A stretch of DNA of 64,000 nt from Burkholderia sp. USMB20 (GTDB taxonomy: Bacteria; Pseudomonadota; Gammaproteobacteria; Burkholderiales; Burkholderiaceae), in contig NZ_JTAN02000019.1 in assembly GCF_000949135.2 (NCBI RefSeq), positions 806,001-870,000 on the forward strand, written 5' to 3'. Within the stretch, counting starts at the first letter, position 1. The number at the start of each line of letters is the position of its first letter. Of this stretch, positions 42,397 to 60,347 are shown in pieces. The notes beneath the pieces were generated by a model, which saw only the letters and a list, made by a program, of their open reading frames with translations, was not told the origin of the DNA and ran no database searches. The position numbers and the translations under genes were made by a program.

Positions 42397-43521
42397 TCAA
42401 CTCGCGATCGAATTCGCAATACTGCGAAAGATCAGCGGCCGCTCGTCCTCCCGCCCTGCCCGCCGCGCGAACTGCACGACCTGTTCGACCCGGCCGTGAT
42501 GTTCGGACTTCGCGCAGACCGGATCGGCCTGCGCCGGGTCGCCGGCCAGCATGTATGCCTGGCAGCGGCACCCGCCGTGATCCGTGTGACGCTCGTCGCA
42601 GGTGCGGCACGGATCGCGCATCCACCCGTCGCCGCGAAACGCGTTGAATGCGTCGCTGTCGTACCAGATCTCCTTCAGCGACCGGTCGCGCACGTTCGGC
42701 AGCGCGAGGCCCGGCAACCCGCGCGCGGCATGGCACGGCAGCGCGGTGCCGTCCGGCGCGACGCCGAGGAACACCGAGCCCCAGCCGTTCATGCAGGCCT
42801 TCGGCCGCTGCTCGAAGTAGTCGGGCACGACGAACAGGATCTTGCACCGTTCGCCGACGAGCTTCCGGTAGCGATTGACCGTTTCCTCCGCTTCGCGCAG
42901 CTGTTCGGCGGTCGGCATCAGCTGGTCACGATTCAGCATCGCCCAGCCGTAGTACTGCGTGTTGGCAAGCTCGAGAAAATCCGCGCCGAGGTCGAGCGCC
43001 ATCTCGATGATCTGGCCGACGTGCGGCAGGTTGTACCGGTGCAGCACGCAGTTCAGCACCATCGGATAGCCATGCGACTTGATCAGCCGCCCGACGCCGC
43101 GCTTGAGGTCGAAGGTGCGCGTGCTGGTCAGGAAGTCATTCAGCTCGCGCGTCGAATCCTGCAGCGACAGCTGGACATGATCGAGGCCGGCCGCCTTGAG
43201 CCGGCCGATGCGCGTGGCATTCAGGCCCACGCCCGACGTGATCAGGTTGGTATAGAAACCCAGCGACCGCGCGTGCTCGACCAGCACCTCCAGATCGTCG
43301 CGCTGCAGCGGTTCGCCGCCGGAAAAGCCGATCTGCGCGGCGCCGAGCGCGCGCGCGTCGCTGATCACCGTGCGCCACGCGTCGGTGTCGAGCTCCGCGC
43401 CGTGCGTCGCGAAGTCGACGGGGTTGTAGCAGAACGCGCAGTGCAGCGGACAGCGGTACGTGAGCTCGGCGAGCAGCCACAGCGGCGCGCTCGGGCGGTT
43501 CGGAGGCGGTGTCAAGTCCAT
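42397..43521 (-). CDS. pqqE: PqqA peptide cyclase, radical SAM
   Basis: A 374-residue radical SAM enzyme that links the Glu and Tyr side chains of PqqA. The SAM cluster motif is CPLHCAFC (C-x3-C-x2-C) near residue 25. GFSGGEPL is the SAM-binding GGE motif. The C-terminal SPASM region has CMNGWGSVFLGVAPDGTALP, CHAARG and CRTCDERHTDHGGCRCQAY, holding auxiliary Fe-S clusters. Start is the ATG one base after the pqqD stop. Last gene of the pqqABCDE operon. Confidence 0.97.
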   Translation of the reverse strand: MDLTPPPNRPSAPLWLLAELTYRCPLHCAFCYNPVDFATHGAELDTDAWRTVISDARALGAAQIGFSGGEPLQRDDLEVLVEHARSLGFYTNLITSGVGLNATRIGRLKAAGLDHVQLSLQDSTRELNDFLTSTRTFDLKRGVGRLIKSHGYPMVLNCVLHRYNLPHVGQIIEMALDLGADFLELANTQYYGWAMLNRDQLMPTAEQLREAEETVNRYRKLVGERCKILFVVPDYFEQRPKACMNGWGSVFLGVAPDGTALPCHAARGLPGLALPNVRDRSLKEIWYDSDAFNAFRGDGWMRDPCRTCDERHTDHGGCRCQAYMLAGDPAQADPVCAKSEHHGRVEQVVQFARRAGREDERPLIFRSIANSIAS

Positions 43522-43522
43522 G

Positions 43523-43804
43523 TCAGTCGAGCCAGCCGCGCAGTCGCGCATGATCGAGGAAGCGATAGACGTCCGACGCGAGATCCGACGTGCTGAACAG
43601 CCGCTCGAGCTCGTCGATGATGTCGTCGAGCTCGCGCTTGCCGTCGCAGCGCGCGAGGATCTCGCCCGCGCTCGGGTTGAGCCGGACCATGCCTTCCGGA
43701 TACAGGAGCACGTACGCATCCTGGGCCGCCTCCCACTGCAGGCGGTACATGCCCCTCAGCGCGGGGCGCAGCGGCACGCCGCTGACGGCTTCGTTGGAGT
43801 TCAT
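43523..43804 (-). CDS. pqqD: PQQ biosynthesis peptide chaperone
   Basis: A 93-residue RiPP-recognition protein that binds PqqA and presents it to PqqE. The stretch [20 protein letters not shown] followed by DDIIDEL is characteristic. Its ATG overlaps the pqqC stop by four bases (ATGA), and its stop is one base before pqqE. Confidence 0.95.
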
Positions 43805-44520
43805 GCGGGGTACGCCTTTTCAATCGCGTCGAGAATCGACCACAGCACATCCAGCTTGAACGACAGGATGTCGAGCGCGCGCCGTTGCGCGTCCGGTGTC
43901 GTGAAATGGCTCAGCGTCACCGCGAGCCCGTGTTCGACGTCGCGCTGCGCGAGCGGCACGCGGCTGCGGAAATACTGCAGCCCGTCCGCCTCGATCCACG
44001 GATAGTGGGACGGCCAGCCCGCGAGCCGGTCGAGGTGGATCTGCGGCGCGAACATCTCGGTCAGCGACGAGCACACGGCCTCCTGCCACGGCGCGTGCCG
44101 CGCGAAATTGACGTAGGCGTCGACCGCGAACCGCACGCCGGGCAGCACGTGCGCGAGCGACCACAGCTCCGAGCGCTCGATGCCGACCGCCTCGCCGAGC
44201 CGCGCCCAGGCCTCGATCCCGCCTTCCTGGCCGCCGTGACCGTCGTGGTCGAGAATCCGCTCGACCCACATCCGGCGCGTGTCGCGGTCCGGGCAGTTGG
44301 ACAGGATCGCCGCGTCCTTCAGCGGAATGCTGACCTGATAGTAGAAGCGGTTCGCGACCCAGCCGCGGATCTGCGCCGGCGAGCACGCGCCGGTGTTCAA
44401 GCGCCGGTTGAACGGATGATGGATGTGGTAGCGCGATTCGAGCGCGCGCAGGCGCGCCTCGAACTCCTGCGCACTCCAGGGCGTCGCGTGCAGCGCCGCG
44501 GCGGGAATCGGTGCGTTCAT
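43801..44520 (-). CDS. pqqC: Pyrroloquinoline-quinone synthase
   Basis: A 239-residue cofactorless oxidase that carries out the last ring closure and oxidation to PQQ. Family features include [40 protein letters not shown] and [20 protein letters not shown] with the active-site histidines. Start [10 protein letters not shown]. Coupled to pqqD by an ATGA overlap and two bases after pqqB. Confidence 0.97.
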
Positions 44521-44522
44521 GG

Positions 44523-45446
44523 TCAGACCTCGAATTGCATGCCGTCGTGGGCGACCTCGATGCCGTGCTCGCGCAACTGCGCGCACTGCGCGGAACCGGG
44601 GTCGAGAATCGGATTCGTGTTGTTGATGTGCGTGAGGACCTTGCGCGTGTGCGCCGGCAACTGCCCCAACTGCTCGATCATCCCCGGCCGCGCCGCGTCG
44701 CCGCACTGCGCGAGATGCCCCATGTCGGCCGCGTGCTTCGACGACAGGCCGAGGTCGATCATCTCGGTGCCAGTCCAGAAGGTGCCGTCCACCAGCACGA
44801 GATCGGCGTCGCGCATCGCGGCGCGCGCGCCGTCGTCGACGTCGGCGAGCCCCGGCGCGTAGAACGCGTGTCGGCCGGTCGCCGTATCTTCGATCAGGAG
44901 TGCGATGTTGTCGCCCGGCACGCTCGCCTCGCGGCGCGGCGAATACGGCGGCGGCTTGCTGTCGACCGGCACGGCGGTGAAGCGAAGGCCGCCGGCGCCC
45001 GCGATCGCGAACGGCTGGCCCGGCGCGATCGGGTGGACGTCGACCCCGCAGTAGTGGCCGAGCAGCGGCACGAGCGGCAGCCCGGTCGACAGGTCGTCGA
45101 GCACCGGTGCGCTCGCGTACAGCGGCAGCGGCGACGTGCGCTCTCGCAGCATCAGCAGGCCCGTCACGTGATCGATCTGCGCGTCGCACAGCACGACGGC
45201 GACGATCGCGCTGTCGCGGATCGCGCGGGCGGGCTGCAGGTCGGGGGCGGCGCGCAGTTGCGCGAGGATGTCCGGCGACGCGTTCACCAGCACCCAGTCG
45301 ATGCCGTCGCCGCTGACGGCGATCGACGATTGCGTGCGCGGCACGATGCCGTCGGTGCCGGCCCGCGCGCGACGGCAGTTGCCGCAGTTGCAGTTCCATT
45401 GCGGCAGCCCGCCGCCGGCGCCCGAGCCGAGTATCTTGATCTTCAT
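44523..45446 (-). CDS. pqqB: PQQ biosynthesis protein B, metallo-beta-lactamase fold
   Basis: A 307-residue protein with the start [20 protein letters not shown] and a four-Cys element around [10 protein letters not shown], as in PqqB, plus [17 protein letters not shown] in place of the usual HxHxDH motif. It hydroxylates the Tyr moiety of the cross-linked peptide in current models. About 65 bases downstream of pqqA. Confidence 0.95.
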
Positions 45447-45510
45447 CTGCGTGTGCTCCGGGTGCCGCCCGCATCGTGTCCGTCGATGCGGGCGGCACTG
45501 CGCGCGTCGA

Positions 45511-45585
45511 TCAGCGGTTGGCGATGTACATCGTGATTTCGAAACCGAAACGCAGGTCGGTATAAGCCGGGGTGGTCCACTGCAT
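45511..45585 (-). CDS. pqqA: PQQ precursor peptide
   Basis: A 24-residue peptide gene. The sequence starts [17 protein letters not shown] and continues with TMYIANR. Glu16 and Tyr20 (E-x3-Y) are the residues that become PQQ. A strong site AGGAGA lies eight bases before the ATG. It is first in the pqqABCDE operon, with a sigma-54-type promoter about 65 bases upstream. Confidence 0.97.
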
Positions 45586-45651: not shown

Positions 45652-45667
45652 AGCAAGGAGCGTGCCG
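45652..45667 (-). promoter_or_regulatory. Sigma-54 (-24/-12) promoter of pqqA
   Basis: On the minus strand the sequence reads CGGCACG-CTCC-TTGCT, matching the consensus TGGCACG-N4-TTGCW at all but the first base with exact spacing. Transcription would start about 55 bases ahead of pqqA. A sigma-54 activator gene lies directly upstream (45878-47893), supporting the call. Confidence 0.75.
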
Positions 45668-45827
45668 GGGCCGGATTTGCGTCGCGCAGCGGTGTGCGAA
45701 GGCGTGCGGCCACCGCCGGGTGGTCACGGCACCGGAATCCTTACGATTGACCGACATAAACATTTCAGAATCCGTCGAGCGACGGTTCACGATGCGCGCG
45801 GCCTGGTGAGCAAGTGTTGAATCCTTG

Positions 45828-45861
45828 AACACCGGGTGTTGCAACCTGACACACCGGTGTG
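45828..45861 (-). promoter_or_regulatory. Paired palindromes, probable activator binding sites (UAS)
   Basis: AACACC-G-GGTGTT (45828-45840) and CACACCGGTGTG (45850-45861) are two perfect palindromes whose centres lie about 21 bases apart, two helical turns. They are 160-190 bases upstream of the -24/-12 element. The minus strand of the first reads GCAACACCCGGTG; the GCAACACCCG part recurs upstream of the alcohol dehydrogenase and acs. Confidence 0.6.
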
Positions 45862-45877: not shown

Positions 45878-47893
45878 TCAGGGTTCGTCCGGCTCCAGCG
45901 CATCCGGCCCGGCGGCCGGCATCTTGCGGTAGATCGTGTTGCGCGACACGCCGAGCGCGCGTGCGGCGGCGGACACGTTGCCGCCATGACGCGCGAGCGC
46001 GGCCGCGATCGCGGATGCGGCCACGTCCTGCAACCGCGCATCACCGGCCGTGGTCGCGTTCGCGAACGCTGGCGCCTCCGCTGCGAGCGCTGGCGGCGCA
46101 GCGGCGCCCTGCGCCGCCGCGCCACAGTCGCGCCGCACGTCGTCGAAGAAGTCGTCCGGCAAATGCTCGCAGCGGATCTCGCAGTCGTCGTCGACCATCG
46201 CGGCCGCGGTGCGCAGCAGGTTCGCGAGCTGCCGGAAGTTGCCCGGCCACGCGCAACGCTCGAACAGCGCCATCACGTCGGGCGCGACGCTCAATGGCCG
46301 GCGGCCGGGCCCCGACAGCGTCTCCCGCTGCAGCATCTTCTGGACGACCACCGCGAGGTCCGTGCGGTCGCGCAGCGGCGGCAGCCGCACGACGAGGCCG
46401 TTGAGCCGGTAGTACAGGTCCTCGCGGAAGCGGTTCTGCGCGATCATCTCGCGCAGGTCGCGGTGGGTCGCGCAGATGATCGCGATGTCGACGCCGATCG
46501 CCTTCGTCGAGCCGAGCGGATTGACGATGCGCTCCTGCAGCACGCGCAGCAGCCGCACCTGCAGCGGATACGGCATGTCGCCGATTTCGTCGAGAAACAG
46601 CGTGCCGCCGTTGGCCTGCAGCAGCTTGCCGGTCGCGCCCTTGCGGCGGGCGCCGGTAAACGCGCCCTCCTCATAGCCGAACAGTTCGGATTCGATCAGC
46701 GTCTCCGGAATCGACGCGCAGTTGACGGCGACGAACGGCCCGTCGCGGCGCGGCGAGTCGTTGTGGATCGCCTGCGCGAGCAGTTCCTTGCCGGTGCCGG
46801 TTTCGCCGGTGATCAGCACCGGAATGTCCTTGCCGATCACCTTGCGGATCTTCGCGATCACCGCCGCGACCTGTGGATCGCCGGTGTCGAGATAGCTGAG
46901 GCGCGACAGGCTCGCCGCGCCCTGCGCGGCAGGCGGCCGCGCGGCGGGCGCGGCGCCGTCGTGCACCTCGGCGGGCCGGCTGCCCTCGGCCCGCAACGCG
47001 CGCCGGAACTGCACGCGCGCGCAGACCACCGCGCCGTTGCCGAGGTTCAGCGACACGTGCGGCTCGGTGCTCGCGCGCATCCGGTCGATCAGTTGCGCGC
47101 TCGTCACGTCGAACAGCGACGCGAGCGTATGCGCGCGCAGCGCGGCAAGCGGCATCCCGAGCTGGAACTGCGCGCTGCGGTTCGCCGACAGGAAGCGGCC
47201 GTCGGCGGTGAACGCGACGATCCCTTCCATCAGCGTGCCGAGGAATTCCGGGCGGCCGTGGAACGACACCTGCAGCGTCTCCTGGAAGGTCGTCGTGAAC
47301 AGGTGGTTCTCGATCATCTGCACCGACATCTTCGCGAGCGCCATCGTGTGCTGGTGATAGCTGCGGTGGTCGCCCGTCACGTCGAGCACGCCGATCGCGT
47401 CGCCGTACGGATCGAGAATCGGCACGCTCGAGCAGGTCAGGAAATGGTTCGCGGCCAGGAAGTGCTGGTCGCCGTGCACGACCATCGGACACAGCTCCGC
47501 GAGCGCGGTGCCGATCGCGTTGGTGCCCTGCCGGTTCTCGGCCCAGTTCGCGCCGGGGCGCAGCGCGACCCGTTCCGCGCGCCGCAGGAAATCGTCGTCG
47601 CCGATCGAATGCAGGATCAGCCCTTCCGCATCGGTCAGCACGATCATGCTCTGCGTATTGACGATCTGCTCGTGCAGCGTCTCCATCACGGGCATCGCAT
47701 GCACGCACAGCACGCGGTTCTGCTCGCGCTTGAGCGCCAGCGCGGCGCCGGACAGCAGGTCGTAGTCGGGACGTGCCGACGCCTGCAGGCCGAACGTCTC
47801 GGACCGCTCATGGGACTTCTGGATCGTCGGCGTCGGCCAGCCGGGCGCATGCGTGGCCCGTGCGTTGGCCGTCGGATGAACGTCATCGCGCAT
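45878..47893 (-). CDS. Sigma-54-dependent activator, AcoR type (GAF-AAA+-Fis)
   Basis: A 671-residue enhancer-binding protein. The N-terminal sensor (about 60-200) is a GAF domain with the AcoR-like stretch [24 protein letters not shown]-like part follows ([20 protein letters not shown]). The AAA+ domain has Walker A GETGTGKE, the sigma-54 contact loop [12 protein letters not shown], Walker [12 protein letters not shown], and ends with a Fis-type helix-turn-helix ([20 protein letters not shown]). Relatives sense alcohols, aldehydes or acetoin. It is transcribed toward pqqA and is the obvious activator of the -24/-12 promoters in this island. Start at 47893 is by family N-terminus. Confidence 0.92.
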
Positions 47894-48216
47894 TGTCTCC
47901 TCCGGGGATCCTTCCGGTCGTGCCGGACTCTTTGCCCTTGATGCAAGCAAACATCGGGCCACGACGGGATGCGCGCACGATCTGGTTTCGTTGCATCGCC
48001 GCGCCGACCGAAATTGAAAGGGAAATGAAATGACGGCACTGGCTTGCCGTCGATGCGGCGTGCCGCGCGCGTGGTCGACGTGATAACGTGAAACGCACGC
48101 GTGCCGCCACCCGGACGAATCCCTATCTTCATCGCCGGCGCGAATCTGGCTTCATACGGGTCGAGCGCGGCCGCATCGCGCGATTGCCTTTCCCTCTCCG
48201 TCTATACCCTGCCGAC
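47894..48216. other. Divergent gap between the activator and the aminopeptidase
   Basis: No gene supported. The 323 bases should hold divergent promoters. I see no clear -24/-12 element and no strong operator-like palindrome. Confidence 0.4.
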
Positions 48217-49212
48217 ATGTCGCCATCACGCAGCCAACGCTCCGCCCTCCCCGTGCGCCGCCTGTCCCGCGATGCATGCACGATCGCGTGGACCGAAGCC
48301 GGCAACCCGCGCGGCGCGCCGGTCGTCGTGCTGCACGGCGGGCCCGGCAGCGGCAGCCGGCCGGCCGTGCTGCGCCTGTTCGACCTGACGCGCACACGCG
48401 TCGTGCTGGTCGACCAGCGCGGCGCGGGTGCATCGACGCCGCGCGGCGGCCTGCGTCACAACGACACGATGCGACTGATCGGCGATCTCGACGCGCTGCG
48501 CGCGCGGCTCGGCATCGCACGCTGGAGTGTCGTCGGCGGGTCGTGGGGCGCGGCGCTCGCGCTCGCCTACGCGGGACGGCATCCGTCGCGCGTCACCGGC
48601 GTCGTGCTGCGCGGGTTGTTCCTCACGTCGTCGCGCGAAGTGCGCGGCCTGTTCGTCGGTGCACGCGCACACGCGCCGCGGGCCTGGCAGCGCCTGACGG
48701 CCGCCGCCGGCACCGCGCGCGCCGATCGCCTGATCGCCTGCTGCGCGCGGCGTCTCCAGCCGGGCGCCGGCGCGGCACGGCAGCGCGCGGTCGCGCTCGC
48801 ATGGAACGCGTATGAAGACGCGATCCTGACCGGGCGGCCGGCGCGCGGCGCGCGGCCGACGCAGGCCGCGATCGACCGGCTGGTCGACAAGTACCGGATC
48901 CAGGCGCACTACCTGCAACGCCATTGCTGGCTCGGCGAACGCCGCTTGCTGGCGCTCGCCCGGCAGGCCGCGCAAGCCGGCGTGCCGATACATGCGGTGC
49001 ACGGCACGCGCGACCGCGTGTGCCCGGTCGACAACATCGATCGACTCGCGCGCGCGGTGCCGGCCGCCATCGTCGAGCGCGTGCCGGCCGGGCATCTCGC
49101 GAGCGATGCTGCGCTCGCGCGTGGCGTCGCCCGCGCGGTACGCAAGATGCTCGACGTCACGGCGGCAGCCACACCGCAACACGCCGAGCCGCCCGTTCAG
49201 TCCCACGCATAG
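48217..49212 (+). CDS. pip: Alpha/beta hydrolase, proline iminopeptidase-like (S33)
   Basis: A 331-residue alpha/beta hydrolase. The oxyanion stretch LHGGPGSGSR, then DQRGAGASTPRGGLRHNDTM, nucleophile elbow GGSWGAALALAYAGRHPSRV with Ser, the acid in HGTRDRVCPV and His in PAGHLA form the full catalytic set of prolyl aminopeptidases. These enzymes release N-terminal proline from peptides. I start it at the ATG giving MSPSRSQRSA. Its 3' end overlaps the 3' end of the TonB receptor by 16 bases on the opposite strand. A role in trimming the PqqA leader is conceivable but unsupported. Confidence 0.82.
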   Translation: MSPSRSQRSALPVRRLSRDACTIAWTEAGNPRGAPVVVLHGGPGSGSRPAVLRLFDLTRTRVVLVDQRGAGASTPRGGLRHNDTMRLIGDLDALRARLGIARWSVVGGSWGAALALAYAGRHPSRVTGVVLRGLFLTSSREVRGLFVGARAHAPRAWQRLTAAAGTARADRLIACCARRLQPGAGAARQRAVALAWNAYEDAILTGRPARGARPTQAAIDRLVDKYRIQAHYLQRHCWLGERRLLALARQAAQAGVPIHAVHGTRDRVCPVDNIDRLARAVPAAIVERVPAGHLASDAALARGVARAVRKMLDVTAAATPQHAEPPVQSHA

Positions 49213-51497
49213 CGCGCGCCGACCCATGCGCCGCGCGGCGCGCCCGGCCCGACGAACTGTTCGTTGACGGCATTGAGCCCGTCGAACGAATGGTTCGGAC
49301 CGTTGAAGAAGTTCCGGCCGAGCATCCCGAAGCTCGCATAGCGCTTGTCGAGCAGGTTGGTGACCGACGCGAACAGCTGCAGCTGCTTCGTGACCTGCCA
49401 GGTCGTATCGAGGTCGATGAGGACATAGCCGGGCACCTTGCCGTTCACGTCCTGGTTGTTCTCGTCGCCGCGCGCGAACACGCCGCTGCGATAGGTGATG
49501 CGGGTGCCGACGGTCCACGTCGGCGTCGCCGCATAGTCGAGCCGCAGCTTCACGGTGCTCGACGGAATCCCGGGAATGCGGTCGCCGGAGCGGACGACGA
49601 TGTTGCCGCGCGCGTCGGCGCTCGAATTGCTCGCGCTGCTTTCGGTCCACGTCGAGCGGTAGCTGGCGTCGACATAGCTGTAGCTGACGCCGATGCCGAG
49701 CGGCCCGAGCCGCGTATGGCCCGCGAGTTCGAAGCCTTGCCGGCGCGTCTTGCCGACGTTCTGGAAATAACCGAGCGTGCTCGCGCCGCCGTTGCTGCTG
49801 ATGAACTGGATGTCGTCGTCGAGCGTCGTGCGGTAGACGGCCGCGCTCCACGTCGTCTCCTGGCCTGCCCGGCCGCGCGCGCCCAGCTCGATCGTCTTCG
49901 CGATCACGGGCTTCAGTGCCGGATCGGCGAGAAAGTCGTTCGGCAACGAGCACGGTGCGGCCGGATCGGCGCACGCGAGCTCGATCGCGGTCGGCGAGCG
50001 CATTCCTTCGTTGTACGTCGCATACGCGGTGAAGCCCGGCACCGGATTCCACGTGACGCCGACGGCCGGATTGAACCGCGCGAACGTATGGCGCGCGGTG
50101 AGCAGCGGCTGCAGGCCGCTCACGTCCTCGATCGCCGCGCGCGACACGTTGTAGCGCCCGGCCAGCGTCAGCGACCATTGCCGCGTCAGCGCGAGCGTGT
50201 CGTCGAAGTAGACGCCGTAGTTCGCGTTGCGCGTCTTCGCGCGCGTCGTCTGCGTGAAGTCGCCGATGCCGACCGTCGCGCGCGTCGCCGTGAACATCGC
50301 ATCCTGCGACGATTGCTCGAACCCCGAGTTCGCGAGATCGGCGGATGCGCCCGCCACGAACTGGTTGTCCATGCCGGCGAGCTTGCCGAGCAGCGTCAGC
50401 TGCAGGTTCGCGCCGTAGCTGTCGGTCGCGATCACCGAGCGGGCGTTGGTCGCCTGCACGGTGTCGGCGGCGCCGCTGCCGTCGACGCTGCCGAAATCGT
50501 CGTTCACGTTGCTGCTGATGTTGGTGTTGCGATAGTGCCGGTAATAGACGTTGCCGCTCAACTGCACGTGGTCGCTGAACGAATGGTCGCCCGCCACGGT
50601 GACGTACGCGGCGCTGTTGCGGTTCAGGTCGGGATAGGTGTACGCCTGCGCGCGATTGTCGAGAAACGTGCGCGGAATCGTCTGCGAGCCTTGCAGCGCG
50701 TTGTCCGCGCCGCCGGCCGAGATCGACAGCGTCGTATCGGCGTCCGTGTAGCGCAGCTTGCCGAAGCCCTGCCGCACGCGGCTCGCGTTGTGATCGGCCC
50801 AGCCGTTGTCGTTCACGACGTTGCCCGTCACGTAATAGTCGAGGTGGCTGCCGACGCGTCCGCCCTGCTCGATCTGCGCGGTCTTGCGTCCCCACGATCC
50901 GATCGATACCTGTGCGGCGCCGCCCGGGCTCGTCCTACCGTTCTTCGTCGTGATCGCGAGCGCGCCGCCGAGCGTGTTGAGGCCGTAGGTCGGATTCGAA
51001 CCGGGGATCAGCTGCATCGTGTCGATCGCCGCCTGCGGGATCAGGTCCCAGTTCACGACGTCGCCGAACGGCTCGTTGACACGCACGCCGTCGACGAACA
51101 CCGACAGCCCCTGCGGCGTGCCGACGACCGGCGACGCGGTGAAGCCGCGGTAGTTCACGTCCGTCTGGTACGGATTGCCTTGTGCCTCGTTGATGTCGAC
51201 GCTCGAGACGTTCTTCTCGAAGTAGTCGGTCAGCACGCTGTCGTGCTGGCGCGCGAGGTCCTCGCCGCGAATCGTCTGCACGTTGGCCGGCACGCGCGAG
51301 AGCGGCGTGCCGATCCCGAGCAGCGGCGTCGTGCCGACGACGACGATCGGCGCGAGCGTCGGCGCATCGGCGTTGCCGGCCGGTTCGACCTGCGCCGACG
51401 CGGGCGCGAGCCAGCCGCCGAGCATGCCGCCGAAGCACAGCGTCACGCCCGCGCGCCGTGCGGCGAAGCGGCGCTTCGCCCCATCGGTTTCCTTCAT
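49197..51497 (-). CDS. TonB-dependent outer-membrane receptor
   Basis: A 766-residue receptor with a signal peptide (GVTLCFGGMLGGWLAPASAQ). The plug domain carries APIVVVGTTPLLGIG (TonB-box region), VPANVQTIRGEDLARQH and QLIPGSNPTYGLNTLGGALA. The beta-barrel ends in YAWD. This plug type with GLNTLGGALAI occurs in receptors linked to metal chelates. It is the last gene of a tonB-exbB-exbD-receptor operon placed inside the PQQ island. Likely ligands are a lanthanide-chelator complex or PQQ itself; iron siderophores remain possible. Start at the ATG preceded by GAGGAGACGTGGAG. Confidence 0.9.
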   Translation of the reverse strand: MKETDGAKRRFAARRAGVTLCFGGMLGGWLAPASAQVEPAGNADAPTLAPIVVVGTTPLLGIGTPLSRVPANVQTIRGEDLARQHDSVLTDYFEKNVSSVDINEAQGNPYQTDVNYRGFTASPVVGTPQGLSVFVDGVRVNEPFGDVVNWDLIPQAAIDTMQLIPGSNPTYGLNTLGGALAITTKNGRTSPGGAAQVSIGSWGRKTAQIEQGGRVGSHLDYYVTGNVVNDNGWADHNASRVRQGFGKLRYTDADTTLSISAGGADNALQGSQTIPRTFLDNRAQAYTYPDLNRNSAAYVTVAGDHSFSDHVQLSGNVYYRHYRNTNISSNVNDDFGSVDGSGAADTVQATNARSVIATDSYGANLQLTLLGKLAGMDNQFVAGASADLANSGFEQSSQDAMFTATRATVGIGDFTQTTRAKTRNANYGVYFDDTLALTRQWSLTLAGRYNVSRAAIEDVSGLQPLLTARHTFARFNPAVGVTWNPVPGFTAYATYNEGMRSPTAIELACADPAAPCSLPNDFLADPALKPVIAKTIELGARGRAGQETTWSAAVYRTTLDDDIQFISSNGGASTLGYFQNVGKTRRQGFELAGHTRLGPLGIGVSYSYVDASYRSTWTESSASNSSADARGNIVVRSGDRIPGIPSSTVKLRLDYAATPTWTVGTRITYRSGVFARGDENNQDVNGKVPGYVLIDLDTTWQVTKQLQLFASVTNLLDKRYASFGMLGRNFFNGPNHSFDGLNAVNEQFVGPGAPRGAWVGARYAWD

Positions 51498-52735: not shown

Positions 52736-53617
52736 CTAGTTTCCGAGTTTGAACACGACCGGCACCCTGACCCAGCCGTCGATTGATTCCGTGCCGCGTT
52801 TCGCCGGCACGAAGCGCCAGTCCGTGACCGCCGCGACGGCCGCCTCGTCGAGCGCGTCGTGTCCGCTGCTCGCCGACAGCAGGACCTGGTCGGGCCGGCC
52901 GCTTGCGAGCACATGCACGTTCAGGAACGCGGTGCCTTCCCAGCCGCGCCGCTGCGCGACGTCCGGATAGTCGGGCGCGGGATTGCGCAGGTACGCAGCC
53001 GCGAACCGCGGTGCGGTGACGGGTTCGGGCGCGGTTGCCGATGGTGCGGCGGGCGCCGCGTGCGCAGGCACCGTCGCGGTATCGGCCGATGCGTGTGCGG
53101 CGGCCGGCGACGCCGGTTCCGGTACCGCCCCGGCTCGCTGCAATTCGCCGTCCGGCCGCGCCACGGCGGTTGCGGCCGGGGGCTGGCGCGAAGGACTTGT
53201 GCGATCGAGCCGACGCGGCACCGTCGGGTTCGGCCGAATCTCCCGAGGCATGACCGTTTCGCGGCGCGCATGCGAAGGCCCGTGCTCGGGAGGAACCGGT
53301 GTTGCGCGATCCGTACGGCGCTGCTCGCCCGGTTCGGCTAGCCGCGCGGATTCGCTCGCGTCCACTTCGACGGCGAGCGCACGGGCTAGCGTCGGGCGGG
53401 CAGCTGGCACCCATGCATGCCACAGCGCGACCGCGATGGCCGCATGGACGGCGAATACCGCCAGCGCGACCGTGTGCAGCGGTTCGCGTGCGCGCACGGC
53501 CTGCGACATCGCGATCGTCGCCGCATCCGCGCCGACGGGCGCGATGCCGTATGCGAGCGCAACCACGCGGCGGCGGTCGGACCTGCGATTGGCATCGAAC
53601 GGCATCGGGACGGGCAT
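52736..53617 (-). CDS. tonB: TonB energy transducer
   Basis: A 293-residue protein with a transmembrane helix (TVALAVFAVHAAIAVALWHA, about residue 50), a Pro/Ala-rich periplasmic linker and a C-terminal TonB domain (PDYPDVAQRRGWEGTAFLNV, then DWRFVPAKRG). A dedicated TonB/ExbBD for a single receptor is usual for specialised uptake. First gene of the operon. I choose the ATG at 53617; the frame extends upstream without typical sequence. Confidence 0.88.
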   Translation of the reverse strand: MPVPMPFDANRRSDRRRVVALAYGIAPVGADAATIAMSQAVRAREPLHTVALAVFAVHAAIAVALWHAWVPAARPTLARALAVEVDASESARLAEPGEQRRTDRATPVPPEHGPSHARRETVMPREIRPNPTVPRRLDRTSPSRQPPAATAVARPDGELQRAGAVPEPASPAAAHASADTATVPAHAAPAAPSATAPEPVTAPRFAAAYLRNPAPDYPDVAQRRGWEGTAFLNVHVLASGRPDQVLLSASSGHDALDEAAVAAVTDWRFVPAKRGTESIDGWVRVPVVFKLGN

Positions 53618-53656: not shown

Positions 53657-53672
53657 GGCAAGAAGCATGCCG
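53657..53672 (-). promoter_or_regulatory. Possible sigma-54 promoter of the tonB operon
   Basis: The minus strand reads CGGCATG-CTTC-TTGCC, which matches the -24/-12 consensus at the GG and GC pairs with exact spacing. It is about 40 bases before the tonB start. Further upstream on the same strand TGACACA (53772-53766) and GCAACAG resemble parts of the pqqA upstream sites. Weaker than the other three promoters. Confidence 0.5.
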
Positions 53673-54034
53673 ATGCCCGCATCGCCCGACCGGCGCCGGT
53701 CGAAGCCGCCACGCGTCGATATGCAACCGCCGTCCTGTTGCAGTTCGTGCCACCGCTGTTGCACCTGTGTCAATTTGGATCAACGGTACGGCGCTCGCGC
53801 AGTCGTATGCGCGATCGTCGTTCGGATCGAGCGCGCCGCCGCGGGCGCGCGGTCCGTTGCATGCGTGCGTCGCACCGGGTAACGGCGCGCCATCGACTCA
53901 CACAGTCGACGACGATCGCCGTCCCTGCGCCGCACCGTCATCCATTCAGGCATGCACTCGCGCACGACGGCCGCGATTGGCCGTGCGCCACGTATCGCAT
54001 GCACGCGGCTCCCGTCCGCTCACGGCGTTGTCAT

Positions 54035-54082
54035 GTTTCGCAACACTCGGCCCGCGGCTGTCCCCGAACGCAACACCCGCGG
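54035..54082 (+). promoter_or_regulatory. Repeated upstream motif of the alcohol dehydrogenase gene (UAS)
   Basis: GCAACACTCG at 54040 and GCAACACCCG at 54070 are direct repeats exactly 30 bases apart, about three helical turns, and 95-125 bases upstream of the -24 element. The first overlaps the small inverted repeat TGTT-TCGC-AACA (54035-54046). The same decamer GCAACACCCG is in the pqqA and acs upstream regions. The rest of 53673-54034 holds no supported gene. Confidence 0.6.
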
Positions 54083-54163: not shown

Positions 54164-54179
54164 TGGCATGCGATTTGCG
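54164..54179 (+). promoter_or_regulatory. Sigma-54 (-24/-12) promoter of the alcohol dehydrogenase gene
   Basis: TGGCATG-CGAT-TTGCG matches TGGCAYG-N4-TTGC perfectly, with exact spacing. Transcription would begin near 54190, leaving a leader of about 80 bases. Confidence 0.8.
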
Positions 54180-54269: not shown

Positions 54270-55997
54270 ATGAAAAAACTCTCGGCTTCGACGAGCCGAC
54301 TGGCAACGATCGGCATCGCGGCGGCTGCCGCGATCGCCTTGAATCCCGGCCTGGTGGACGCTGCCGCGGATTATCCGGCCGTCACGTACCAGCGGCTCAC
54401 GGATGCACAACGCGATCCGGGCTGGCTCACCTACTACCGCACGTACAGCGGCCAGGCGCATTCGCCGCTCAAGCAGATCGACGCGTCGAACGTGAAGCAG
54501 CTCACGCAGGCGTGGAGCTACAAGTTTCCGGCCGAGCTGAAACAGGGTTTCGAGGCCACGCCGATCGTCAACGGCCGCTACCTGTTCGTGACCACGCCGA
54601 AGGACAACGTGTACGCGTTCGACGCGGCCACCGGCGCGCAGCTGTGGAAATACGAACCGAAGCTCGGCGCGGAATCGTTCAAGACGGCCTGCTGCGACGT
54701 CGTGAACCGCGGCGTCGCGCTGTACGGCAAGAACGTCTACGTCGCGATGCTGAGCGGCGAGGTGGCCGCGCTCGACGCGCAGACCGGCGCGCTCGTGTGG
54801 AAGAAGCAGATGTTCGAACCGGGGCTCGGCTACGCGTTCTCGCTCGCCCCGCTCGCGCTCGACGGCGCGATCGTGGTCGGCAGCTCGGGCGGCGAATACG
54901 GCGCGCGCGGCTTCATCGCGGCACTCAGCCCGAACGACGGCACGCTGCTGTGGAAGCGCTTCACGATCCCCGGCCAGGGCGAGAAGCACGCCGATACCTG
55001 GCCCGACGGCATGCAGGCGCACGGCGGCGCGCCGGCCTGGCTGACCGGCACCTACGACGCGGCGACGCGCACGCTGTACTGGGGCGTCGGCAACCCGGGG
55101 CCGTGGCTCGCGGACCTGCGGCCGGGCGACAACCTGTACTCCGATTCGCTGCTCGCGCTGGATCCGAAGAACGGCGACCTCAAGTGGCACTACCAGTACA
55201 CGAAGCACGACACCTGGGACTACGACGGCGTCAACACGCCGGTGCTCGCGACGATCAAGTACAAGGGCAAGGAACACGACGCGATCGTCCATGCCGACCG
55301 CAACGGCTACTTCCATGCGATCGACCGCGACACCGGCAAGCTGATCTATGCGGAGCCGTTCGTGAAGGCCACGTCGGTCACCGGCTACACGGAAGACGGC
55401 GCGCCGATCCAGGATCCCGCGAAGTATCCGAAGGTCGGCACGACGATCGACACGTGCCCGAGCTTCCTCGGCGGCAAGAACTGGTGGTCGATGTCGTACG
55501 ACCCCGTGCGCCATCTCGCGATCGTCCCGGCGCTGCATGCATGCATGAGCCTGTCGGGCAAGTCGGTCAACTACATGGAAGGGCTGCCGTATCTCGGCGA
55601 AGGCTTCGAGATCAAGCCGGAGCCGGGCAGCGAAGGCTACGGCGAACTCCAGGCGATCGACGTGAACACCGGCAAGAAGGTGTGGAGCCACTGGAGCAAG
55701 CTGCCGTGGAACGGCGGCGTCGCGACGACCGCGAGCGGCCTCGCGTTCAGCGGCTCGCTCGACGGCCACTTGTACGCGTTCGACGTGTCGACCGGCAAGG
55801 TGCTGTGGGAGAGCCCGAAGCTCGCGAGCGGGATCATCGCGCAGCCGTCCGTCTTCGAAGTCGACGGCAAGGAGTACGTAGCAGTGCTCGCCGGCTACGG
55901 CGGCGCCAACCCGATCTGGGGCGGCCCGATGGCCAAGGCGGCGGACGACGTGCCGCGCGGCGGCACGCTGTACGTGTTCGCCCTCGACCGCGGCTGA
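54270..55997 (+). CDS. PQQ-dependent alcohol dehydrogenase, lanthanide-type (XoxF/ExaF-like)
   Basis: A 575-residue periplasmic eight-bladed propeller quinoprotein that oxidises methanol, ethanol or similar alcohols. It has a signal peptide (ATIGIAAAAAIALNPGLVDA). The vicinal disulfide Cys141-Cys142 is in KTACCDVV. Metal ligands are likely Glu209 (GGEYGARG) and Asn275 (GVGNPGP). The catalytic Asp317 lies in WDYDGVN, and Asp319 two residues on is the extra carboxylate characteristic of lanthanide-dependent enzymes; calcium MxaF types have Ala there. It has no fused heme domain, so it needs an external cytochrome, provided by the next gene. Start is the ATG after CAGGAG; an in-frame ATG 18 bases upstream is less likely. 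Confidence 0.92.
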   Translation: MKKLSASTSRLATIGIAAAAAIALNPGLVDAAADYPAVTYQRLTDAQRDPGWLTYYRTYSGQAHSPLKQIDASNVKQLTQAWSYKFPAELKQGFEATPIVNGRYLFVTTPKDNVYAFDAATGAQLWKYEPKLGAESFKTACCDVVNRGVALYGKNVYVAMLSGEVAALDAQTGALVWKKQMFEPGLGYAFSLAPLALDGAIVVGSSGGEYGARGFIAALSPNDGTLLWKRFTIPGQGEKHADTWPDGMQAHGGAPAWLTGTYDAATRTLYWGVGNPGPWLADLRPGDNLYSDSLLALDPKNGDLKWHYQYTKHDTWDYDGVNTPVLATIKYKGKEHDAIVHADRNGYFHAIDRDTGKLIYAEPFVKATSVTGYTEDGAPIQDPAKYPKVGTTIDTCPSFLGGKNWWSMSYDPVRHLAIVPALHACMSLSGKSVNYMEGLPYLGEGFEIKPEPGSEGYGELQAIDVNTGKKVWSHWSKLPWNGGVATTASGLAFSGSLDGHLYAFDVSTGKVLWESPKLASGIIAQPSVFEVDGKEYVAVLAGYGGANPIWGGPMAKAADDVPRGGTLYVFALDRG

Positions 55998-56079: not shown

Positions 56080-57336
56080 ATGAACCTCCGACTTTCCCGC
56101 CTCGCCGTGGCCTGTGCGCTCGCGGCAGGCACGGCGCTGACCCCGGTGCCGTCCACGGCCGCGACGGCGGTACGCGTCTGCTCGCTGCCCGGCACGCCGA
56201 CGGCCGCGCTCGACAAGGCCGTCGCCCGCGAGGTGTTCCGCACGGCCGGCATCGTCGCCAGCTTTTCCGCACACGACGCGGGCGGCAGCGACGACGACGG
56301 CGTATCCGCGCACGAACTCGCCGGCATCCTCGAACGCGATTGCGACGTGCTCGCCGGCTTCCCGCGCTCGGCCATCGCCGACGCATCCGACACGAAGCTG
56401 CTGTTCTCGCAGGGCTACCTGCGCTCGGGCTACGTGAGCGTCACGCGCCGCGACGCCGGCACGCCGGCGACCGGCCGGGAAATCGTCGCGGCCACCTACG
56501 CGAGCCCCGCGCAACTGATCGCGGTTCAGCAGAAGAACGCGCGCTTCGATCTCGAGAACACGTCCGAGCAAACGATCGACGCGCTCGCCCGCGGCCGCGC
56601 GCATCGCGCGATCGTCTGGTATCCGGCGGTCGTCGCGTACCAGGCCGCGCATCCGAAACAGGCGTTCCGCATCGGCGCAACCTCGTCGCCGTATGCGGAG
56701 TGGCAGCTCACGTTCGCGTTCGCGCCGCGCTCGGCCGCGTTGCAGCAGCGGATCGACGCGGCACTCACGCAGATGAAGGACAACGGTCGGCTCGCCGCGC
56801 TGACCCGCAAGTGGGCACTGCCCGGCAGCGCGCTCGAAGCGCACGAGTCGCGCACGCCGTCGCGTTTCCTCGACGGCGCGACGGCGAGCGCAGGCCGCGC
56901 GCCCGGTAGCCTGCTGCCCGCGCGCAACGTGCCCGCAGGCGGCTTCATCCGCGTCGCCGCAAGCACCGGCGACGCCGCGCCGACGTTCGACGCCGTCCAG
57001 GTCGCACACGGCAAGGAAATCTACGGCAACGCCTGCGCGAAGTGCCACGGCGCCGACCTCGAAGGCAACACCGCGCCCGCGCTGAGCGGCCCGTCGTTCG
57101 CGCCGCTGTCGCATTCGCACCTGACGATCGGCGGCGTGTTCGGCTACATGGCGACCAACATGCCGGCGGACCAGCCCGGCAAGCTGAAGGACGAAGACTA
57201 CGCGGACCTGATGGCCTTCCTGCTCGCGTCGAACGGCTACGTCGCCGGCAAGAGCAAGCTGACGGCCGATACCGCCCACGCATCGACCGCGCCGCTCGTC
57301 GCCGGTCCCGCCGCGCACAAGGACGCGAGCCAGTAA
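56080..57336 (+). CDS. XoxJ-like periplasmic protein fused to cytochrome c (XoxG-like)
   Basis: A 418-residue protein with a signal peptide (ending PSTAATA). Residues about 30-255 are a substrate-binding-protein-like domain (VRVCSLPGTPTAALDKAVAR, then FAFAPRSAALQQRIDAALTQ) of the MxaJ/XoxJ type thought to help mature or activate the dehydrogenase. Residues about 300-390 are a class I cytochrome c with heme motif CAKCH at 319-323 and likely axial Met361 in ATNMPADQPG. In methylotrophs XoxJ and XoxG are separate proteins; here they are one chain. It sits about 80 bases after the dehydrogenase and should take its electrons. A plain gene-fusion by assembly error is unlikely because the frame is continuous. 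Confidence 0.85.
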   Translation: MNLRLSRLAVACALAAGTALTPVPSTAATAVRVCSLPGTPTAALDKAVAREVFRTAGIVASFSAHDAGGSDDDGVSAHELAGILERDCDVLAGFPRSAIADASDTKLLFSQGYLRSGYVSVTRRDAGTPATGREIVAATYASPAQLIAVQQKNARFDLENTSEQTIDALARGRAHRAIVWYPAVVAYQAAHPKQAFRIGATSSPYAEWQLTFAFAPRSAALQQRIDAALTQMKDNGRLAALTRKWALPGSALEAHESRTPSRFLDGATASAGRAPGSLLPARNVPAGGFIRVAASTGDAAPTFDAVQVAHGKEIYGNACAKCHGADLEGNTAPALSGPSFAPLSHSHLTIGGVFGYMATNMPADQPGKLKDEDYADLMAFLLASNGYVAGKSKLTADTAHASTAPLVAGPAAHKDASQ

Positions 57337-57411: not shown

Positions 57412-57729
57412 GTGACGTACCCGACCTCCCGCAGAACCTTCATCATCCATACCATCGGCCTGTGCGCGACGCTCGCCACCTCACGCACGGCACTCGCGGC
57501 ACCGCCGCTCGTCGACGAGAACGATGCCGCCGCGAAGACGCTCGGCTATCGCGCGCGTGCGTCCAGCGTCGACGCCGCGCAGTTCCCGAAATACCAGGCC
57601 GGCCAGCGCTGCGTCAACTGCCGCTTCTACAAGGGCGAAGCGGCGGACGCCGCCGGCACGTGTCCGATGTTCGGCGGCAAGCTGGTCGCCGCGGACGGCT
57701 GGTGCAACGTGTATGCGAAGCGCGCGTGA
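57412..57729 (+). CDS. High-potential iron-sulfur protein (HiPIP)
   Basis: A 105-residue periplasmic electron carrier. A twin-arginine type signal ([19 protein letters not shown]) fits export of a folded Fe-S protein. The four cluster cysteines are Cys67, Cys70, Cys84 and Cys98 (CVNC, TCPMFGG, GWCNVY), the HiPIP pattern. It lies about 75 bases after the cytochrome fusion and may carry electrons from it, or from other donors, to the respiratory chain. Confidence 0.92.
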
Positions 57730-57745: not shown

Positions 57746-59599
57746 ATGCCGGCGCGGCACGCACCGGCCCCCGTGGCCGGCATCGACGACGGCGCGCCGC
57801 CGCACGCCGTCGCGCATCTGCACGCGCTGATCGCGACCGGCCTGTCGCGCGGCTTCGTCACGCGCGGCGACATCATCGACACGCTGCCCGACGACGATGC
57901 GGGCGACAGCGGCATCGATGCGGCCGCCGCGGTGCTCGCCGAACTCGGCATCGCGGTGTGCGACAGCGCCGATACCGCGAGCGGCTGGACGCTCGACCGC
58001 TACTTCCGACCCGCGCCGCCCGCGCGTGCATGGGCCGACGGCGCCGGCACGCTCGCCGCGGCCGACCTGCTCGCGCCGCGCACGACCGACCCGGTCCGGC
58101 TGTACCTGCGCGAGATGGGCACGACGCCGCTCCTCACGCGCGACGAGGAATTCGCGTACGCGCAGCGCATCGAGCGCGGCCGCGCGGCGGCGGTCGCGGT
58201 GCTGTGCGGCGATCCCGATGCACTCGACGCGCTGGTGTCGATCCGCACCGAGATCGCCGAATGCCGGACCGCCGCATCGACCTACGTGGTCTTTCTCGCC
58301 GACGGCCCGCGCGACGATCGACCTGCGGACAGAGTCGATGCGGACGCTTCGCCCGCTTCCACCGGCGAACCCGCACGCGACGACGAGACGCCACCGGAGG
58401 ATTCGGCCTGGCGCGACGCCGTCGTGGCACGGCTCGCCCGCATCGACGCGCTCGCCGGCGGCATGCGCGCGGCGCTGCTGTCGGGCGGCACCGCTTCCGC
58501 CGCGTATCGCGCGCAAGTCCGCGACGTCGCGGCGCTGCTCGGCACGGTGAGCCTGTCCGCCCGCGCACTCGAACGGATGAGCGAACCGTTGCGCAAGCGC
58601 GCATGCCGGCAGCGCGCACTGCGGGGCCGGCTCGCGCGGATGCTGGCCGACGTGGGCGTCCCGCCGTCGTTTGCGCGGTCGAGCGACGACGACCACGCGG
58701 GCTGGCTCGCGTCGTGCATCGCCGCCCATCCGGCCTGCGGGCCGACGCTGACGCGGCGCGCGGCCGAGTTCGTCGACGCACGCGCCGCGATCGTGCGCGA
58801 TGCCCCGACGTCGGCGCTGCCGCCCGGCGCGACCGCGTCGCTCGATGCGCGGCTCGCTGCGATCGAGCGCGCGATGCAGCCGGCGAGGACGGGCCTGTTC
58901 GACGCGAACCTCCGGCTCGTCGTGTCGATCGCGAAGCGCTATCCCGATCGCGGGCTGCCGTTCGCCGACCTGATCCAGGAAGGCAACATCGGCCTGTTGA
59001 AGGCGATCGAGCGCTACGACTACCGGCGCGGTTTCCGCTTCTCGACCTACGCGACCTGGTGGATCCGGCAGGCGATCACGCATGCGCTCGCCGACCTCGG
59101 CCGCACGATCCGCGTGCCGACGCATACGGTCGACGCGCTGAACAAGCTGACGCGGCTCGCGCGCGAGCATCGGCAACGCGTCGGCACGGCCGCGACGCCG
59201 GCCGAACTGGCCGTCCACATGGGCGAGCCGGTCGACAAGGTGCGCGACCTGATGGCGATCGTGAAGGAGCCTGTGTCGGCGGATTTGCCGGTGTCGCCGG
59301 AAGGCGACATGACGTTCGCCGACGTCGCGCCGGACCTGTCGTCGCCGTCGCCCGAAGACGCGGCCGGCGCCGCCCAGTTGCGCCATACGATCGCTGCCGC
59401 GATCGACCGGCTGCCGCCGCGCGAGGCGACGGTCCTGCGGTTGCGCTACGGACTGCACGCGGACGAAGGCTGCTCGCTGCGCGACATCGGCCGCCAGTTG
59501 AACCTGTCCGCCGAACGCGTGCGGCAGATCGAGGCGTCGGCGCTCGCGCGGCTTCGCGCATCCGACGCGCTCGGCGTGCTCCGGTCGTTCATCGCGTAG
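57746..59599 (+). CDS. RpoD-like sigma-70 factor (paralogue)
   Basis: A 617-residue sigma factor. Residues about 15-75 resemble region 1.1 ([20 protein letters not shown]). Region 1.2 is [21 protein letters not shown] long divergent insert replaces the non-conserved region. Regions 2.1-2.4 are near canonical ([20 protein letters not shown], then [20 protein letters not shown]), region 3 follows, and region 4 ends with [20 protein letters not shown]. It looks like a second primary-type sigma rather than an ECF factor. It starts 16 bases after the HiPIP gene, so it is probably co-transcribed with the dehydrogenase set. The ATG at 57746 fits the region 1.1 alignment. Confidence 0.88.
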
Positions 59600-59643
59600 C
59601 ACGACGTTCCGGCCAGCGGCGTGCACGCCGCGCATCGTGTGCC

Positions 59644-59665
59644 GTGTTGACGCCTGCAACACCCG
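59644..59665 (+). promoter_or_regulatory. Upstream activator motif before acs
   Basis: GTGTTG-N7-CAACAC (59644-59662) is a perfect 6-base inverted repeat, and its right half is the decamer GCAACACCCG (59656-59665) shared with the dehydrogenase and pqqA upstream regions. It is about 140 bases upstream of the -24 element. Confidence 0.6.
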
Positions 59666-59803
59666 CTGCTGCATTTCGACGCAACGCGCAGGCCGGCAAG
59701 CGCACCGAGTGCCTGGTCTTTTCATGCTTTGCACTGCATATCGATCTACGCGAACCGCACTGCAACGCGCACGCACGCCGCTGCGGCCGAATACCCGCGC
59801 GAC

Positions 59804-59819
59804 TGGCATGCAAGTTGCG
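59804..59819 (+). promoter_or_regulatory. Sigma-54 (-24/-12) promoter of acs
   Basis: TGGCATG-CAAG-TTGCG matches the consensus exactly and is nearly the same as the dehydrogenase promoter. It lies about 45 bases before the acs start. Confidence 0.8.
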
Positions 59820-59864
59820 TTTCAACAGTCAGGCCGCACACCAACGATTTCCACGGAGAACACC

Positions 59865-60347
59865 TTGACTGCCCTCGTATCGATCCTGCAGGAACACCGA
59901 ATCTTCGAACCGTCGGCCGACGCACGCGAGAGCGCCAACATCTCCGGCATGCCGGCCTACCGCGCACTGGCCGCCGAGGCCGAGCAGGATTACGAAGGCT
60001 TCTGGGCGCGTCTCGCGCGCGAAGGCCTCAGCTGGCACAAGCCGTTCACGAAGGTGCTCGACGAGAGCGACGCGCCGTTCTACAAATGGTTCGACGACGG
60101 CGAACTCAACGCGTCGTACAACTGCCTCGACCGCCACGTCGAAGCCGGCAACGGCGAGCGCGTCGCCGTGATCTTCGAGGCCGACGACGGCACCGTCACG
60201 CGCGTCACCTATGCCGAGCTGCTGACACGCGTGTCGCGCTTCGCGAACGCGCTGAAGAAACGCGGGATCGGCAAGGGCGATCGCGTCATCATCTATATTC
60301 CGATGTCGATCGAAGGCATCGTCGCGGTGTCGCGGTCACGGACCTGA
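59865..60347 (+). pseudogene. acs: Acetyl-CoA synthetase, truncated after about 155 codons
   Basis: The N-terminus of acetyl-CoA synthetase is clear: [60 protein letters not shown], and [21 protein letters not shown] full enzyme has about 650 residues; here homology stops at EGIVA (about 60327), and the frame ends at TGA 60345-60347 after junk residues. The sequence joins directly to a copy of the 3' end of the downstream Tla3-like gene. The likely start is TTG at 59865, preceded by GGAGA. Acetate activation would complete the alcohol-oxidation pathway, so this looks like a functional gene disrupted by insertion or rearrangement. The ATP-binding and C-terminal parts are absent from the window. 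Confidence 0.9.

Follow-up and report, generated by a model that had tools for sequence, protein, structure and literature searches.

Alcohol oxidation by lanthanide-dependent enzymes is known mainly from methylotrophs and Pseudomonas. We take the lut cluster of Methylorubrum extorquens AM1 to encode the receptor LutH together with lanmodulin. A TonB-dependent lanthanide receptor serves a pyrroloquinoline quinone (PQQ) dehydrogenase there (PMC7391723), and the ped cluster of Pseudomonas putida (PedH/PedE) joins a lanthanide-type PQQ ethanol dehydrogenase to a cytochrome, a solute-binding protein (SBP) and a nearby lanthanide transporter (PMC12997753). For regulation, the closest description is that of BmoR and the promoter Pbmo in Thauera butanivorans, which combine an alcohol-responsive enhancer-binding protein, a distant upstream activating sequence and a sigma-54 promoter (PMC8899819). 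Here we describe a gene cluster with likenesses to all three, in a stretch of 64,000 nucleotides from Burkholderia sp. USMB20 (assembly GCF_000949135.2, contig NZ_JTAN02000019.1, positions 806,001 to 870,000), the whole of which we call the window. Judged from its sequence and its relatives, the cluster is reasonably likely to be a module for the oxidation of alcohols in the periplasm, controlled by sigma-54 and equipped with a lanthanide-dependent PQQ dehydrogenase and a dedicated sigma-70 factor. A sequence-only reading of the window had already proposed that sigma-54 governs a module in which cofactor synthesis is joined to a lanthanide-type enzyme, electron carriers and uptake; the sequence bears this out, and the module is conserved and probably co-regulated.

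From left to right the cluster comprises pqqE-D-C-B-A, a gene for an activator, an aminopeptidase-like gene, a receptor gene, exbD, exbB, tonB, the dehydrogenase gene (adh), a gene for an SBP-cytochrome fusion, a gene for a high-potential iron-sulfur protein (HiPIP), a sigma factor gene and a fragment of acs. The pqq genes, activator, receptor, exbD, exbB and tonB read leftward; the aminopeptidase-like gene and those from adh to acs read rightward. The genes from pqqABCDE to the sigma factor that had been named as neighbours are all present, and their order is kept in relatives among the loci compared, so that the refuting condition set by the sequence-only reading, an order shared by no relative, does not apply.

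Candidate promoters were scored with a 16-base sigma-54 element, its weights written by hand from the consensus (maximum 22.4), and for each gene and its orthologues, the window included, we sought the best site scoring at least 18 within 350 bp upstream. The window elements score 21.1 (pqqA), 20.6 (adh), 20.6 (acs) and 18.4 (tonB). Such an element precedes adh in 36/36 loci, pqqA in 26/26, tonB in 5/5, the activator gene in 30/32 and acs in 12/13, where the sole miss is the inverted acs of L012; L020, in which the match to adh began late, was left out of the adh count. Loci fetched later (seven, with some genes lacking in one or more) gave 7/7 for adh, pqqA and the activator, 5/5 for acs and 2/2 for tonB. 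As the loci are kin to one another, these fractions do not represent independent cases. Genes internal to the adh operon served as controls and had an element in 0/32 (SBP-cytochrome fusion), 1/27 (HiPIP) and 0/14 (sigma factor) cases, while 3–7% of shuffled upstream stretches contained one. Distance from the gene is also kept: −97 to −109 for adh (−166 in L014), −77 to −94 for pqqA, −66 to −79 for the 30 activator genes with a site, −57 to −64 for acs in cluster order and −55 or −56 for tonB (−52 and −56 in the loci fetched later). The receptor (9/16) and the aminopeptidase-like gene (6/14) form weaker sets; in L001, L011, L083 and L084, which have no tonB at that place, the same element precedes the receptor, and receptors behind tonB have no sigma-54 element of their own. 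A conserved −24/−12 element thus heads the activator gene, pqqA, adh, acs and tonB, its place before tonB being taken by one before the receptor in several loci where tonB is missing. Of these elements, all but that of the activator gene had been predicted, and their conserved positions, at fractions far above those of internal genes and shuffles, confirm the prediction; the element of the activator gene and the enhancer-like dyads described next had gone unnoticed.

When all 5-mer dyads upstream of six genes were counted, the top pair was GTGTT-N9-AACAC and TGTTG-N7-CAACA, which combine into GTGTTG-N7-CAACAC. This dyad lies, with at most two mismatches, before acs in 12/13 loci and before pqqA in 22/26; with at most three it lies before adh in 35/36, a setting at which the whole window holds 21 such places. 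The window dyads between adh and tonB are 30 bp apart. In a nine-sequence alignment upstream of acs, both element and dyad are invariant at a mean column identity of 60%. Of 11 Burkholderia genomes, eight have a single exact copy of the dyad and three have none, and of those eight places six are before acs, one is at the acs promoter of G002, from which the cluster acs has gone, and one is elsewhere (G006, beside an RpoD homologue). The dyad is a probable enhancer site, to which we infer that the activator binds. A genome-wide hunt for a regulon with two mismatches was rejected as too noisy (86 places in B. anthina against 64 for the reversed pattern); at no more than one mismatch B. anthina has four places, two of them in the cluster and two without a sigma-54 site of at least 18.3 within 600 bp.

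For the dehydrogenase, the nearest PDB chains are 6zcw, which we take to be PedH, and 6zcv, followed by ExaA 1flg (422 bits for 6zcw against 355 for 1flg). Two positions after the catalytic Asp, the window protein and 6zcw both have Asp, whereas 1flg has Ser, the residue of calcium-type ExaA/PedE, and 1kv9 and 1kb0 have Thr. Of 65 Burkholderia genomes 37 contain an orthologue, and all 37 sequences have the lanthanide-type Asp (DTWDYDGVN in 35, DSWDYDGVN in 2). An Asp at this place has been tied to lanthanide use (PMC5487730). On this residue signature the enzyme is probably a lanthanide-dependent PQQ alcohol dehydrogenase of the ExaF/PedH type, and its earlier description as a lanthanide-type alcohol dehydrogenase stands, given the invariant Asp and PedH as nearest structure. 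Of its likely electron acceptors, the fusion protein had been called a XoxJ-cytochrome fusion. Its family matches TIGR03871 (MoxJ-type) in 20/21 members and TIGR03872 (cytochrome cL, MoxG) in 21/21 at E≤0.01, and the window protein reaches 25 and 23 bits, a long way short of the curated cut-offs (212 and 148); the name is a fair one, though unproven.

Two further genes follow the dehydrogenase across the same 65 genomes. The sigma factor (E≤1e-120) is found in 29, always on the dehydrogenase contig and 1701–2365 bp away, and in no genome lacking the dehydrogenase. The receptor (E≤1e-180) is found in 30, all with the dehydrogenase, from which it is separated by 442–2811 bp in 29, the exception being G060, where the receptor is on other contigs. 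The receptor-adh gap exceeds 2.5 kb, leaving room for tonB-exbB-exbD, in seven genomes, and these three genes were found in all seven; they lie between receptor and adh in 5/35 loci (in L007 only the C-terminal third of TonB was matched), and in L014 they precede adh with the receptor absent. Only some species have the accessory tonB-exbB-exbD unit, and loss of the receptor has occurred more than once. The earlier claim that the island has its own uptake system therefore applies to a subset of relatives and is not general.

These parts suggest how the module may work. The GAF domain of the activator would sense an alcohol or its aldehyde; the activator, bound to the dyads, would with RpoN switch on the genes for PQQ synthesis, those for the receptor and the TonB system that energises it, and the adh operon. 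Lanthanide, free or chelated, would be brought by the receptor to the periplasm, where it would join PQQ in the dehydrogenase, and the electrons would be taken up by the MoxJ-like fusion at its cytochrome domain, by the HiPIP, or by both. The RpoD-like sigma factor, last gene of the adh operon, probably redirects part of transcription during growth on alcohol, and where acs is intact its product would convert the acetate formed from ethanol to acetyl-CoA.

Several observations weigh against this account. A plain count of the sigma-54 consensus over the whole window found 32 sites where 26.8 were expected, and 16 of 100 shuffles gave as many, so that the count is not above chance and the evidence is that of position and conservation; whole-window counting was dropped in favour of conserved position with controls. 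Most dyads before adh carry three mismatches in 12 positions, and only 8/32 activator genes have a dyad within three mismatches. Among the 37 adh genomes the receptor has no match in seven and the sigma factor none in eight, including G036, where the gene is split. Receptor homologues of Ideonella, Methylocalor and M. nodulans have no PQQ dehydrogenase annotated nearby, and in Caballeronia M1242 receptor and adh are on different replicons, with no PQQ gene within 12 kb of the receptor. Lastly, acs is broken in the window, partly deleted in L008 and was not found in L003, L077 or L085.

The window acs aligns with residues 1–155 only of the 660-residue Acs of B. multivorans. Its frame runs through codon 154 and then, at a junction near 60325, into a copy of the 3' part of a 447-codon gene (60806–62149), the repeat being 96% alike over 300 bases; in L080–L084 the DNA match to the window ends at 60326–60329, though acs is full length there. 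Ten loci have acs whole or truncated no earlier than codon 655, where the contig stops (L001, L007, L009, L011, L036, L080–L084); in five a contig end cuts it earlier (L002, L004, L005, L006, L010). It is inverted in L012, and L003 retains the acs-type promoter and dyad with acs gone. Counted over 35 loci, acs follows the cluster in nine (five or six of them cut by a contig end), survives as a remnant in one and is inverted in one, the rest having no orthologue seen. The sequence-only reading had included acs, with its acetate activation, in a complete module. In the window it is an N-terminal fragment, and because acs is lost or broken in four other loci as well (L003, L008, L077, L085) completeness is not supported: the picture of one regulator governing the full path from ethanol to acetyl-CoA is tidier than this genome allows, in which the acetate step must therefore rest on another acs or be lost.

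The fate of acs lends itself to a different account, in which the dehydrogenase oxidises alcohols in general, or methanol, and serves detoxification or host-associated life, not growth on ethanol, and acs is a passenger. Genes named alike (sigma-54 Fis regulator, PQQ genes, PQQ alcohol dehydrogenase, SBP) occur in an insect-associated region of other Burkholderiaceae, and PQQ genes are upregulated in symbiosis (PMC9088363); insect-symbiont records carry adh at 83–87%; and an aldehyde dehydrogenase lies near the cluster in L012, L023, L035 and L052. A mere passenger, however, would sit oddly with the same promoter type and an exact or near-exact dyad before acs, and with the ten loci in which acs is whole or nearly so and the five in which a contig end cuts it earlier. 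We regard this account as possible, if somewhat doubtful. Formylmethanofuran (C1) genes, expected beside the cluster, were not found at E 1e-8 in 39 loci (L001–L036, L052, L077, L078) or in the window. Paraburkholderia largidicola (L053, 15002–35510) has a receptor and pqqBCDE together with formylmethanofuran genes, pqqA and a RuBisCO gene, which suggests methanol use in that lineage.

A separate observation concerns acs copies within one genome, compared in L037–L050. The cluster acs and the other genomic acs agree at 99.3% in B. ubonensis, 99.9–100% in IMCC1007 and 99.4–99.8% in B. ambifaria (partial copies); the two copies of B. pseudomultivorans, at 93.6%, are an exception. Because the copies are otherwise far more alike within a genome than between species, gene conversion between them is likely.

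The most unusual part of the proposed sigma-54 module is its sigma factor, which the sequence-only reading mentioned in passing. The protein has Pfam regions r1.1, r1.2, r2, r3 and r4, the RpoD-type regions of a group 2 sigma-70, and shares 36% identity with each of two further proteins of the RpoD type in B. anthina. Where cluster members cover these parts, Arg is replaced by His in the presumed region 2.4 segment and by Ala in the presumed region 4.2 helix (TRER to SAER). The ratio of non-synonymous to synonymous substitution (dN/dS) is 0.26–0.36 against six cepacia-complex loci, for which adh gives 0.03–0.10, and 0.51 to B. ubonensis; the sigma factor thus changes faster than the dehydrogenase, yet remains under purifying selection. 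In searches of the open-licence literature we recognised no paper on regulation of the cluster or on this sigma factor. Tentatively, we suggest a sigma relay, in which an alcohol-sensing activator and sigma-54 would drive an operon that ends in a dedicated, RpoD-derived sigma-70 with altered −35 recognition, reprogramming the cell for growth on alcohol.

Alternatively, the gene could be a degenerating duplicate of rpoD with no regulon of its own, as befits its place among the fastest-changing cluster proteins (with the aminopeptidase-like protein, and after TonB), its splitting in G036 and in a second cluster of B. pseudomultivorans, and the eight adh genomes in which it is unmatched. Decay of this kind is nevertheless unlikely, for the protein is near full length without inner stops in 28 of the 29 genomes that have it (the remaining one being partial), regions 2 and 4 are conserved, and the changed region 4.2 helix is common to the 12 cluster members covering that part. 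The B. pseudomultivorans cluster with the split sigma gene (L077) is a diverged copy with no acs, and G036 has the same form (L085).

Relatives of the receptor at 30–40% identity stand beside PQQ dehydrogenases in Variovorax (in the order dehydrogenase-HiPIP-receptor), Sphingobium and Novosphingobium. That of M. nodulans lies two genes from a 134-residue, lanmodulin-like EF-hand protein with four loops starting DP, DP, DP and NP, proline at the second loop position being a trait of strain AM1 lanmodulin (PMC9260416). The window receptor scores 339 bits against the M. nodulans receptor (32% over 730 residues) and 107 against E. coli PqqU. We therefore read it as LutH-like, by kinship to the M. 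nodulans protein.

The profile search had first suggested PqqU instead: PqqU/YncD (6v81, 9c4o) are the nearest solved receptors (E about 1.5e-29), and the gene stands beside pqq genes, as does pqqU, in the same orientation next to the pqq operon, in four Burkholderiales genomes (PMC12124388). The module would then import cofactor, not metal, recovering lost PQQ. PqqU is marked by Y/F/W99, R304 and R365 (PMC12124388, section 10), and the window receptor has Val127 for Y99, Tyr324 for R304, in a weakly aligned column with Arg322 and Arg325 close by, and Asp for R365 (D401 with hhalign, D389 with MAFFT). A tree built from 18 receptors separates the window protein, its linked relatives and the M. 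nodulans receptor from PqqU, BtuB, FhuA and receptor 1 of Novosphingobium (92/99), although the tool drew this split open and the branches of PqqU and BtuB, which meet, are long; the methanobactin-type receptor of Ideonella, whose branch is the longest of all, groups with the window protein. With E. coli PqqU as query, three Burkholderia genomes gave weak matches to other receptors (best E 1.3e-14) and, at E 1e-10, none to that of the cluster. PqqU was ranked behind LutH on signature and bit scores, and a PQQ importer is quite improbable, the more so in a cluster that encodes PQQ synthesis of its own. The earlier suggestion of metal or cofactor import can accordingly be narrowed: because of the bit scores (339 against 107) and the absent signature, and with the tree on the same side, lanthanide uptake appears likelier than PQQ uptake, the cofactor being less favoured. 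Beside the LutH-like receptor of Novosphingobium is a second one (L097, 6923–8959) with Arg at the positions of PqqU R304 and R365 and Gly at Y99; the pair possibly imports metal and cofactor together.

Features of the cluster in window coordinates (strand given as + or −; a point marks features without strand).
Feature	Position	Strand	Basis or remark
pqqE	42397..43515	−	Radical_SAM and SPASM; 89% to B. multivorans PqqE
pqqD	43523..43804	−	PqqD Pfam
pqqC	43801..44520	−	TENA_THI-4/PQQC
pqqB	44523..45446	−	Lactamase_B_2; 85% to B. multivorans PqqB
pqqA, 24 residues, intact, Glu16 and Tyr20	45511..45585	−	100% to annotated PqqA
Sigma-54 element of pqqA, CGGCACGCTCCTTGCT	45652..45667	−	Conserved
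Two enhancer-like dyads before pqqA (45814–45832, 45836–45854)	45814..45854	.	22 bp apart; 1 and 2 mismatches; conserved
AcoR-type sigma-54 activator	45878..47893	−	GAF, AAA+ with GAFTGA, Fis HTH
Sigma-54 element of activator gene, TGGCCCGATGTTTGCT	47946..47961	−	Element scan
Prolyl-aminopeptidase-like alpha/beta hydrolase	48217..49212	+	TIGR01249 219 bits, under cut-off 260
TonB-dependent receptor, read as LutH-like	49197..51503	−	Domain search, bit scores, tree
exbD	51587..52015	−	
exbB	52012..52725	−	
tonB	52736..53617	−	
Sigma-54 element of tonB, CGGCATGCTTCTTGCC	53657..53672	−	Element scan
Two degenerate enhancer-like dyads, tonB-adh gap (54028–54046, 54058–54076)	54028..54076	.	3 mismatches each; position conserved
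Sigma-54 element of adh, TGGCATGCGATTTGCG	54164..54179	+	Element scan
PQQ alcohol dehydrogenase (adh), probable lanthanide type	54270..55997	+	Asp319 two after Asp317; CC pair at 141
Solute-binding (MoxJ/XoxJ-like) domain and c-type cytochrome fusion	56080..57336	+	
High-potential iron-sulfur protein (HiPIP)	57412..57729	+	
RpoD-like sigma-70 factor, cluster-linked	57746..59599	+	Regions 1.1, 1.2, 2, 3, 4
Exact enhancer-like dyad before acs	59644..59662	.	
Sigma-54 element of acs, TGGCATGCAAGTTGCG	59804..59819	+	Element scan
acs fragment	59865..60347	+	Codons 1–154 of 660, then foreign reading to stop
Duplicated 3' part of gene at 60806–62149, joined to acs	60325..60742	+	

The nearest relative compared is L080 (genome G021), with 90–92% DNA identity across the cluster and a dehydrogenase 99% identical to that of the window; judged by its relatives, the host belongs to the cepacia complex. 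The B. multivorans cluster is on plasmid-listed records of 744 and 550 kb and has the same left neighbours as in the window, a topoisomerase IB gene and sugar ABC genes; we saw nothing to suggest that it has the character of a mobile island. The aminopeptidase-like gene was absent from the gene list of the sequence-only reading. We take Glu16 and Tyr20 to be the normal residues of PqqA. Because the window pqqA encodes a 24-residue PqqA with both residues and has a sigma-54 element of its own, the description of pqqA as a degraded fragment of about 100 bp (PMC9088363) looks mistaken. Beyond acs, in the part of the window from 60325 to 62811, the 447-residue protein (60806–62149) has no Pfam match and is followed by a gene for a KorA/TrfB-like plasmid repressor. 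Elsewhere in the window, 4001–27219 is a low-GC block (44–47% from 4 to 24 kb) of polysaccharide genes, for acyltransferases, glycosyltransferases, Wzc, a GDP-mannose dehydratase and a sugar transferase.

If the module is as we read it, species of a common genus of soil bacteria and opportunists carry lanthanide alcohol oxidation behind sigma-54 promoters, with a likely metal receptor and, in some species, a private TonB system, and the cluster makes the question of how non-methylotrophs acquire rare earths a testable one. Equally testable is the reason for which a metabolic enzyme would have to itself a sigma factor of the primary type, seen only beside that enzyme in 65 genomes; were the sigma relay true, one lanthanide alcohol dehydrogenase would carry its own promoter-selectivity factor.

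Some differences from the described systems stand out. BmoR, presumably kin to AcoR, serves an alkane monooxygenase, unlike the cluster activator, and its likeness is one of description. In the ped cluster lanthanide control is exerted by PedS2/PedR2; the terms sigma-54 and RpoN are absent from PMC12997753, and the available part of that report makes no mention of an RpoD-like sigma factor, an SBP-cytochrome fusion or a TonB-ExbB-ExbD-receptor unit. The insect-associated region of Burkholderiaceae is alike by name in its PQQ genes, PQQ alcohol dehydrogenase, sigma-54 Fis regulator and amino-acid SBP, but comprises 38 genes and, unlike the cluster, includes formylmethanofuran genes (PMC9088363). 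Compared with the lut cluster, the genes annotated here include neither an ABC transporter nor an EF-hand protein, and part of the relatives have a TonB-ExbB-ExbD unit of their own.

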